Source: Halobacterium rubrum (GTDB lineage Archaea; Halobacteriota; Halobacteria; Halobacteriales; Halobacteriaceae). Taken from it: DNA of 64,000 nt. Each line of letters begins with the position of its first letter. The stretch's first letter is position 1. Positions 21,014-53,263 of this stretch are shown piece after piece. The position numbers were made by a program, and so were the translations under genes. The DNA is taken from positions 124,001 to 188,000 of the forward strand of contig NZ_JAJQQZ010000002.1 in assembly GCF_021729015.1 (NCBI RefSeq), written 5' to 3'. A model generated the notes under the pieces. That model was given only the letters and a program-made list of their open reading frames with translations. It did no database searches and had not been told where the DNA came from.

Positions 21014-21499
21014 TCACTCCACCCGGTAGAACATCCCCTTCGAGGCGGGCCGGGTCTCCTCGAACCCCCACTGCCGTCAGAACGCGCGTTCTGACGTTCT
21101 CGAAAATCGCGAGGCGATTTTCGAATGTTCGTAGAAGCCGTCGACGTCCACCGTGAGGTTCACGTACGCGTTCGGCGGCGCGTGCTCGTCGAGGTACGCC
21201 ATCACGGCGTCCATCAGTTGCGTGCCGAGCCCCTGGAGCTGGTGGTCGGGGTGGACGACCATGTCACAGACGTGGTAGACCGAGCCGCCGTCCCCGACGA
21301 TTCTGGCCATACCAACCGTGTCGGACCCCTCCTCGACGACGGTGACGCCGTAGACGGAGTTCGGGAGGCCGCGTTCGACGCCCTCCCGCGAGCGCGCAGA
21401 CATCCCGGCTGCGGCCCGCAGTTCCTGGAAGCGCTCGACCGTCGGGAGCGCCTCGCGGAGTTCGTAGCTCTTACCCTGGCGTGGCTGGACTCGGCGCAA
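21014..21499 (-). pseudogene. GNAT-family N-acetyltransferase interrupted by a palindromic insertion
   Basis: The GNAT fold is intact up to the last strand: VYGVTVVEEGSDTVGMARIVGDG, then VCDMVVHPDHQLQGLGTQLMDA (the acetyl-CoA-binding loop reads QLQGLG), then VDGFYE. Here about 54 bp of palindromic sequence is inserted and brings in a TGA stop. Beyond it, in the same frame, the normal family ending can still be read at 21014-21071 (WGFEETRPASKGMFYRVE, stop). The start is also poor: the expected MSYELREAL reads KSYELREAL, so the ATG may have become AAG; TTG 21499 is the nearest alternative. It lies just downstream of gatB on the same strand. Probably a recently inactivated acetyltransferase of unknown substrate. 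Confidence 0.8.
21072..21125. mobile_element. ~54-bp two-hairpin palindromic element inside the GNAT gene
   Basis: Two hairpins lie side by side: GTCAGAACGC / GCGTTCTGAC (21076-21095, perfect, no loop) and CGAAAATCGC / GCGATTTTCG (21101-21110 and 21114-21123, 3-nt loop). Reading frame on both sides belongs to one acetyltransferase, so the block is an insertion. A second element of the same length, layout and first hairpin lies in the gene at 52706-53263. No transposase is encoded; this is a miniature, non-autonomous element or repetitive palindrome. Exact borders are uncertain by a few bases. Confidence 0.75.
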
Positions 21500-21579
21500 A
21501 GTCGTGTCGGTTCGGCCCACCGGGCCAGACGAGTGCCGGCGTTCAGCGGCGCGAATCCGAGACAAGTAGACGGGCTCGC

Positions 21580-49953: not shown

Positions 49954-50341
49954 CTGTCGCTGACGGTCTGGAGCACGCAGCCCGGGTTGGCTGCGAAGAC
50001 AGATACTGACAGTGGTAGCGGTGTCGCCGTCGACGGTCGGCGACTGACCGGGTGGGGTGTCGCCGTCGACGGTCGGCGACTGACCGGGTGGGGTGTCGCC
50101 GTCGACGGTCGGCGACTGACCGGGTGGGGTGTCGCCGTCGACGGTCGGCGACTGACCGGGTGGGGTGTCGCCGTCGACGGTCGGCGACTGACCGGGTGGG
50201 GTGTCGCCGTCGACGGTCGGCGACTGACCGGGTGGGGTGTCGCCGTCGACGGTCGGCGACTGACCGAAAACGCAGGTGGATGACAGCGAGACCGGCGAGT
50301 GGACGACAGCGGTGTCGCGGCGGGAGCGTGTCGCTCGCCGG
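49954..50341. other. 388-bp gap holding a minisatellite between convergent genes
   Basis: The gap lies between the stop of the winged-helix gene and the stop of the convergent DUF7123-type gene. Its central 246 bp are the 36-bp tandem array. Nothing gene-like is visible in the rest; open frames through the array exist on both strands only because the unit length is a multiple of three. Confidence 0.7.
50020..50265. repeat. 36-bp tandem repeat array, six full and one partial copy, all identical
   Basis: The unit begins GGTGTCGCCGTCGACGGTCG and ends GACCGGGTGG. Six perfect copies (50020-50235) are followed by the first 30 bp of a seventh (50236-50265). Each unit contains GTCGCCG and CGGCGAC as an inverted repeat that could fold into a 7-bp hairpin, plus a GTCGAC (SalI-type) palindrome. 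Copies abut without spacers, so it is a minisatellite, not a CRISPR. Absence of any base differences points to recent expansion or active homogenisation. Confidence 0.97.
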
Positions 50342-52705: not shown

Positions 52706-53263
52706 TCAGTAGTGCTCGGTGACGAACGGGCCGACTGCGCCGGCGACTGCCGTCCGGAGCGCCTCCGTTCGGTCGGTCATCCCGGCGGTCAGCACGCCCG
52801 CAGCGCCCTGATTCTCGGCGACGCCGGAGGTGTCCAGCAGGTCGTCCATCACCGGTCCGAGTTCCGCGCCGTCGTGGAGACGGTCGGCCACATCGTCGGG
52901 CAGGCGGAGGCGCGGTCCCGCCCCGATTTCGATGCGGTCGCCGTCGGTGGCGGCGGCCCACATTATCAGGTAGAGGTCGCCGGCCCGCTCGGCGACGCCA
53001 CCCTCCAGACCGACGCCGAGGTCGTGGTCGTCATCCTCAGAACGCGAAGCGTTCTGACGGGCTGCGGAAGACGACGTCGTCGTCTTCCGAACGTCGAGCG
53101 CGCGCTGGGCGCGGTTGCGGGCGCCTGCAACGGTCTCGTCGTCGCCCCACGGCTGTTCGCTGACGCCGCTCTCGACGGCGACGCGCTCCACTGTCGCGTC
53201 CGGGAGCGCGCGCCGGACGGCGTCGCGCTTCACGGGATTCCCAGAGCCGACTGCTACGTGCAC
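52706..53263 (-). CDS. Inosine/xanthosine triphosphatase with an 18-residue palindrome-encoded insert
   Basis: YjjX/NTPase-family house-cleaning enzyme that hydrolyses non-canonical ITP and XTP. VGSGNPVKRDAVRRAL at 5-20 and DLGVGLEGGV at 81-90 are its key motifs. Between QRALDV and DDDHDLGVG, residues about 59-76 (RKTTTSSSAARQNASRSE) are encoded by a 54-bp double-palindrome insertion that stays in frame. Without it the protein would be 167 residues, close to the usual ~170. The insert lies in a solvent-exposed loop before the catalytic strand, so activity may survive. GTG start at 53263. Convergent with the glycosyltransferase gene. Confidence 0.85.
   Translation of the reverse strand: MHVAVGSGNPVKRDAVRRALPDATVERVAVESGVSEQPWGDDETVAGARNRAQRALDVRKTTTSSSAARQNASRSEDDDHDLGVGLEGGVAERAGDLYLIMWAAATDGDRIEIGAGPRLRLPDDVADRLHDGAELGPVMDDLLDTSGVAENQGAAGVLTAGMTDRTEALRTAVAGAVGPFVTEHY
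53036..53089. mobile_element. 54-bp two-hairpin palindromic element inside the NTPase gene
   Basis: TCAGAACGC / GCGTTCTGA with a GAA loop (53038-53058) and CGGAAGACGACG / CGTCGTCTTCCG (53065-53089, near-perfect). Length, hairpin order and the AGAACGC/GCGTTCT first hairpin match the element at 21072-21125; the second hairpin differs. It is oriented the same way. Read in this frame it has no stop codon. Confidence 0.75.

Follow-up and report, generated by a model that had tools for sequence, protein, structure and literature searches.

The 64,000-nt stretch of Halobacterium rubrum DNA analyzed here (hereafter the window) contains, within a gene encoding a putative NTPase, two adjacent hairpins that are translated together with the rest of the gene. 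This raises the question of whether the hairpins constitute a mobile repeat and, if so, how such a repeat is able to persist within protein-coding sequences. Our analysis indicates that it is probably a non-autonomous DNA-hairpin mobile element of haloarchaea, which survives in genes by being translatable.

The repeat and its host gene

Table 1. Position of the host gene and of the repeat copies within the window.
Feature	Position	Strand	Basis
Diverged member of the repeat family; hairpin 1 GAAAATCGC..GCGATTTTC, hairpin 2 CAGAACGCGCGTTCTG	21070..21129	(-)	Covariance model R1, 32.5 bits, E=1.1e-5
Host gene, DUF84 / NTPase_I-T (inosine/xanthosine triphosphatase-like), 185 aa	52706..53263	(-)	Pfam PF01931
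Whole two-hairpin repeat, 66 nt, GACGTTCGGAAGACGACGACGTCGTCTTCCGCAGCCCGTCAGAACGCTTCGCGTTCTGAGGATGAC	53030..53095	sense = (-)	Covariance model R1
Hairpin 1: TTCGGAAGACGAC - GAC - GTCGTCTTCCGCA	53063..53091	(-)	Compensatory changes at 9 of 12 pairs, 29 copies
Hairpin 2: CGTCAGAACGC - TTC - GCGTTCTGAGG	53035..53059	(-)	Compensatory changes at 5 of 11 pairs; 97% of cells paired
Linker between the hairpins, GCC	53060..53062	(-)	Both C columns invariant in the copy alignment
Predicted 60-bp net insertion	53032..53091	(-)	Span minus 6 rule from empty sites elsewhere

Inspection of the host gene revealed two perfect hairpins, CAGAACGCGAAGCGTTCTG (53038-53056) and GAAGACGACGTCGTCGTCTTC (53067-53087), which confirmed an earlier note, made from the nucleotide sequence alone, with regard to both their place in the NTPase gene and their translation. 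The product of this ORF matches PF01931 over residues 6-180 (Pfam, E=6.5e-45), with the insert lying inside the matched span. The related proteins in the PDB are 1u14, 1u5w (YjjX), 1zno and 1zwy (VC0702), and in the alignment with 1u5w the extra residues of the NTPase lie in the gap that separates the segments ETRAGARNR and FWVAIEAG. A structure predicted by AlphaFold from the single sequence was uninformative (pLDDT 44.9). The window copy is read through in the host ORF, which gives about 20 extra amino acids, and it appears to have extended a loop of the DUF84 NTPase, presumably located at the protein surface.

A covariance model (R1) was built from 22 copies of the repeat; the window copy, itself one of these 22, scored 87.9 bits (E=1.4e-19). 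The window is 70% GC and rich in GAC/GTC, a composition that would favor the formation of hairpins by chance in coding DNA. The probability of such an origin is negligible: it is refuted by the above E-value, by the occurrence of a 97% identical copy in a different species, within an unrelated gene, and by the absence of the insert from the orthologous gene of sister genomes. A repeat search over the entire window gave a signal dominated by GC-rich coding similarity. A tandem array of 36-bp units (about 7-9 copies) is located at 49984-50307.

The other member of the family in the window, at 21.1 kb, had been regarded in the earlier note as the same type of element with the same first hairpin. 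The R1 score (Table 1) supports its membership, and its hairpin 2 matches that of the window copy, but its hairpin 1 is a different stem. This diverged member provides the TGA stop codon and the C-terminal residues SERAF of a GNAT ORF (21077-21565, minus strand).

Distribution of the repeat

A second full copy was found in the same genome (C1:841001-841066), in a response-regulator/PAS kinase gene, where it shares the reading frame of the window copy (RKTPQESSAAQQNAERFED versus RKTTTSSSAARQNASRSED). A DNA search of 26 genomes of the family gave matches in 20, the best being the 97% identical copy mentioned above. With R1, copies were detected in every one of the 26 family genomes (maximum 48 per genome) and, at E<=1e-6, in 295 of the 394 Halobacteria genomes sampled; only a small number of candidates was scored in each genome, so these genome and copy counts are minimum values. 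The repeat is thus dispersed, as had been proposed. It is also present on haloarchaeal plasmids, and part of it was identified on plasmid NZ_LN831305.1 of H. hubeiense. No match was obtained in the phage records searched, nor in Rfam for 8 source sequences. The exact pattern occurs in the genome contigs of only Haloferax profundi and Natrialba hulunbeirensis, in both cases within TrpB.

One ORF of G011 (L047) has a pair of copies separated by 189 bp, in equivalent positions within a sequence that is itself repeated; this suggests that the segment carrying the repeat was duplicated. Hairpin arrays that are related to the repeat but consist of other stems (GAAAGACGGC, GAGAGACGCC, GAAAGGCGC) were observed at L162, L170-L175, L177-L180 and L188; these loci apparently belong to a modular family of haloarchaeal hairpins.

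Empty sites and length of the unit

The NTPase gene was found in 19 of the 26 family genomes. In agreement with the earlier suggestion that orthologues would lack the insert, the repeat is absent from all 17 that were aligned (the window's own gene excluded), and relative to its orthologues the window gene has gained 57-60 bp.

Exact empty sites were identified for three further host genes. In the acetyl-CoA synthetase (Acs) gene of G011 the occupied site reads CTCGGCG[TTCGG...GGGATG]ACGACACG, and 8 of 9 orthologues contain just six bases instead (e.g. GGCGAC or GGGGAC); this copy is a 69-nt variant, with a net gain of 63 bp. The NAD kinase (NADK) gene of G008 is 60 bp longer than the closest of 14 empty orthologues, and the same gain was found in TrpB of H. 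profundi and N. hulunbeirensis relative to the closest of 24, one of the empty comparators in this case being a Haloferax sister with 96% identity. It follows from the sites in NADK, TrpB and Acs that the net gain equals the span minus 6. The window-type repeat, with its model span of 66 nt, adds 60 bp, rather than the exactly 54 bp ascribed to the element in the earlier note. The insertion predicted in the window by this rule comprises a 57-bp core (TTC...GAGG) and 3 bp, ATG, whose counterpart in other copies is ACG; the position given to these three ambiguous bases is an arbitrary choice.

The triplets at the edges of the copies are mostly [AG]CG on the left and ACG on the right (ACG/ACG in 15 copies, GCG/ACG in 26). 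They are compatible with a possible 2-3 bp target duplication at CG, and fit equally well ends that belong to the element itself. MITEs are characterized by target duplication and by terminal inverted repeats that match those of a resident transposon; apart from its hairpins, the unit has no obvious terminal inverted repeat.

The TrpB copies of H. profundi (L196/L237) and N. hulunbeirensis (L197/L238) occupy the same site, after the motif SNAIGLFHAFRD, in two different genera, as a result of either transfer or convergence. The Acs gene of G008 (L219) contains a 33-bp in-frame insert, GVRDGGESSDAAD, exactly where that of G011 holds the repeat; with its product GVRKTT.ESSSAA, it looks like an eroded remnant of the repeat.

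Orientation, reading frame and length in genes

For 104 located copies, the coding frame was scored separately upstream and downstream using a codon model trained on the window, so that continuity was not presumed. Coding sequence on both sides, on one strand, was found for 26 of them; most of the others have no flanking coding sequence. All 26 genic copies are in the sense orientation, three with a weaker shadow on the other strand, and 25 keep the frame, always in the same peptide frame, whose common product, with variants, is DVRKTT(E)SSSAAHQNA(E)RSED. The only frame-shifted genic copy is L139; in L164 the start of the model match is offset, yet the QNxxRSED frame is identical to that of the other genic copies. 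Binomial tests on 25 of the 26 genic copies gave probabilities of 8e-7 (orientation) and 2e-11 (frame), and the independent genic events are estimated at approximately 20 rather than 26, because some copies are orthologous, paralogous or duplicated. Pfam assigned the host proteins to NAD kinase, ParA/MinD ATPases (two), LplA, PhoU, fibrillarin, Acs, TruD, GNATs, TnpB, Trm56, the PolC large subunit, DUF2070, MFS and TrpB, among others.

Among standard copies, all 16 genic ones have a length divisible by three, compared with 15 of 33 non-genic ones (Fisher p=1e-4), in line with the proposal of the earlier note. In frame-preserving copies such a length follows by definition, and the observations that are informative on this point are the single frame-shifted case (L139) and the split in span of the GGAAGAC copies: those of 63-65 nt lie outside genes, while those of 66 nt are mostly located within them. 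The dominant length is not the postulated 54 bp, since 15 of the 25 frame-preserving genic copies have a span of 66 nt (60 bp net) and the remainder add 48-63 bp.

Nor is a frame without a stop codon a peculiarity of the copy in the NTPase gene, as had been implied: 4 of the 6 consensus insertion frames are open. Provided that G[AG]CG is the preferred target, the sites in the genes of the window would allow phase 1 in the sense orientation (35%) and phase 2 in the antisense orientation (34.5%) equally, and both are open. The products of the corresponding test constructs are VRKTTESSSAAHQNAERSED (sense; net charge 0) and VLRTLRVLMGCGRRLRRLPK (antisense; net charge +6). The phase of the target sites accounts for the frame of the genic copies, but not for their orientation. 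The antisense phase is equally available and open, yet was never seen, which suggests that the kind of peptide produced is also important. The proposal that a length divisible by three permits survival in genes consequently holds with respect to the conserved frame, while this property is insufficient on its own. We infer purifying selection acting on the peptide in the acidic proteins of haloarchaea; an alternative cause of the sense-only bias would be the coupling of insertion to transcription.

A second translated hairpin family

The NTPase orthologues of the sister species G009 and G010 (L079, L080) contain a different insert, in frame and about 18 residues long, which lies in another loop. 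Its DNA is a dispersed double hairpin (GGTCGAGCGnAGCGAGACC and GCGAGCGGTGAAACCGCGAGC), unrelated to the first repeat; 25 of the 26 family genomes have a full or partial match to it. In several genic-looking copies (L284-L295) this second family is read in the same frame, as ERSETAxxASGETASSE. Together with the window repeat, the insert of G009 and G010 means that one enzyme has been struck independently by two translated hairpin families.

Covariation of the stems

Covariation was analyzed in a set of 29 equal-length copies, in which the 23 stem pairs are 97.6% formed. Double-sided changes were found at 14 pairs (62 cells), a level reached in none of 500 shuffles, and this signal was lost when the partner positions were slid. 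A one-sided change occurs in a single cell, and it is a G-U. The two stems are represented by 68 and 58 distinct arm pairs, and the arms of a given copy are 93% complementary, compared with 43% and 61% when equal-length arms are swapped between copies. If the hairpins functioned as RNA, changes in their stems would be expected to pass through G-U pairs, which is not required of a palindrome kept as DNA. Since the arms co-vary almost without G-U intermediates, the palindrome appears to be maintained as DNA, and a function of the hairpins at the RNA level is disfavored.

These data also bear on the idea that the insert is functional, i.e. that the peptide or the mRNA hairpins help the host gene through regulation, salt adaptation or as a flexible linker. 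This is improbable: although the peptide is hydrophilic and uniform, one TrpB site is occupied in two genera, and fibrillarin and GNAT genes have been repeatedly targeted, the host proteins are unrelated, the presence of the repeat is very patchy (nearly all orthologues lack it), there is no match in Rfam, and the one G-U pair among the changed cells is unlike selection on RNA.

Correction of the palindromes by template switching could be the source of the near absence of one-sided changes. It may even be asked whether dedicated mobility is needed at all, if template switching perfects or extends palindromes and gene conversion occasionally copies them. The near-perfect match of the arms across so many arm pairs, and its loss upon swapping, are what such a process would produce, but it leaves unexplained the identical linker and ends at hundreds of unrelated loci and the clean 60-bp insertions at empty sites; as a complete account it is slightly more improbable still than a function of the insert.

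Proposed mobilization of the repeat

The observed identity of the repeat, its empty sites and net length, the bias in frame and orientation and the DNA-type covariation may be brought together in the following scheme for a non-autonomous mobile element. The unit would be of roughly 60 bp, with two adjacent palindromes, an [A/G]CG left edge and an ACG right edge. A putative trans-acting factor, probably an enzyme acting on hairpins, would (i) recognize the folded or palindromic DNA, (ii) copy or move the unit and (iii) insert it at sites containing CG. The majority of copies would persist outside genes, and those within genes would survive if they are in the sense orientation and lengthen the gene by a multiple of three bases; their translation would then yield a soluble linker, DVRKTTxSSSAAHQNAxRSED, which is about 20 residues long and probably tolerated rather than beneficial.

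The analysis yielded neither a candidate for the mobilizing enzyme nor a recent insertion event. We considered whether the repeat may belong to a REP- or IS200/IS605-type system, as a REP- or PATE-like derivative whose movement depends on a Y1 (HUH) transposase, TnpA or RAYT, cutting beside DNA hairpins. Such a relationship would agree with the hairpin-forming nature of the repeat, with its end tags, whose complementary strand gives the CGTC typical of CGTC REPs, with the presence of copies within IS605-type TnpB genes and in an apparent IS605-type near-terminal palindrome, and with the precedent of the Haloquadratum PATEs and SMR-A (PMC3119063). It is nevertheless rather unlikely. Y1_Tnp (PF01797) has no match in the genome of H. 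rubrum (G000), in G009 or in G016, which hold 4-21 copies of the repeat (11 in G009, 21 in G016), the correlation between copy number and Y1 count is not significant (Spearman 0.44, p=0.14, 13 genomes), and the 60-bp gain with a 3-bp edge repeat differs from the PATEs, reported in PMC3119063 as lacking duplication. A Y1 transposase is therefore unsupported as a resident mobilizer, being absent from several copy-bearing genomes, although its past activity is possible.

The repeat is contained in an IS605-type TnpB gene at two places in G014 (L136/L137). At L194 and L043 the arrangement is CCCACG[element]ACGGCTAAAGCCGTGGG, which, judging from the sequence, looks like insertion into an IS605-type near-terminal palindrome. 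The adjoining IS605-like sequence of these two variants might suggest that the repeat is the omega-RNA region of TnpB; insertion into the palindrome fits better.

A broader interpretation, put forward tentatively, is that of a class-wide selfish repeat under double shaping, which is kept palindromic as DNA and a benign one-frame peptide as code, with a subfamily of 60 bp net specialized for genes and slightly shorter, near-identical copies between genes. The second family (ERSETAxxASGETASSE) may have evolved likewise.

Comparison with known systems

Protein-coding palindromes are known from intracellular bacteria and from one methanogen. A translatable hairpin repeat now spans most of a free-living, genetically tractable class of archaea, and the exact empty sites in TrpB, NADK and Acs make the movement of such elements, and their tolerance by proteins, testable in Haloferax and Halobacterium. 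The repeat also accounts for a number of low-complexity insertions in enzymes of haloarchaea that might otherwise be taken for adaptations to salt. A full-text search of open-access papers returned no report of a haloarchaeal protein-coding palindrome.

In Haloquadratum walsbyi, according to PMC3119063, PATEs and small mobile repeats (SMR) are non-autonomous and palindromic; PATEs have near-terminal palindromes and cause no target duplication. SMR-A elements, which measure about 110 bp and carry terminal inverted repeats, target the near-terminal palindromes of IS605-type elements, as copies of our repeat also appear to do. The passages that describe these elements make no mention of a translated family among them.

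The GTAG/CGTC-tagged REPs (Di Nocera et al. 2013, PMC3733652) are short hairpins with a tag tetranucleotide and heterogeneous stems, some of them intragenic; the transposase of the CGTC REPs is not known, and haloarchaea are not mentioned in that paper. The haloarchaeal repeat shares CGTC-like ends with them but does not fit their published anatomy: a CGTC REP consists of one 8-9 bp stem, a 4-5 nt loop, CGTC at one end and a CCA tail, mostly in head-to-head dimers (PMC3733652), whereas the repeat has a fixed pair of 11-13 bp stems, mostly 3-nt loops, and [AG]CG/ACG ends.

The closest parallels are the RPE of Rickettsia and WPE of Wolbachia (Ogata et al. 2000, 2002, 2005), dispersed palindromic repeats that occupy in-frame positions in conserved but functionally unrelated genes and also occur in intergenic regions (PMC2229807), and the Methanocaldococcus (M. 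jannaschii) elements, archaeal palindromic repeats fused into protein genes (Suyama et al. 2005, as described in the citing papers PMC2229807 and PMC2996958). Like RPE and WPE, the haloarchaeal repeat is dispersed at unrelated loci inside and outside genes, and, as in all three systems, it is inserted in-frame in conserved genes, with empty orthologues in the case of NTPase, Acs, NADK and TrpB. It is not a member of the RPE, from which it is set apart by host and length: RPE are 105-146 bp long and come from an alphaproteobacterium, whereas the repeat is archaeal, about 60 bp long, and composed of two adjacent hairpins whose stems exchange freely. From the M. jannaschii elements, to which it is likened through the description in the citing papers, it differs in lineage. 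In its mode of working, the haloarchaeal repeat resembles the protein-coding palindromes of these three genera (Rickettsia, Wolbachia and Methanocaldococcus); its anatomy is different.
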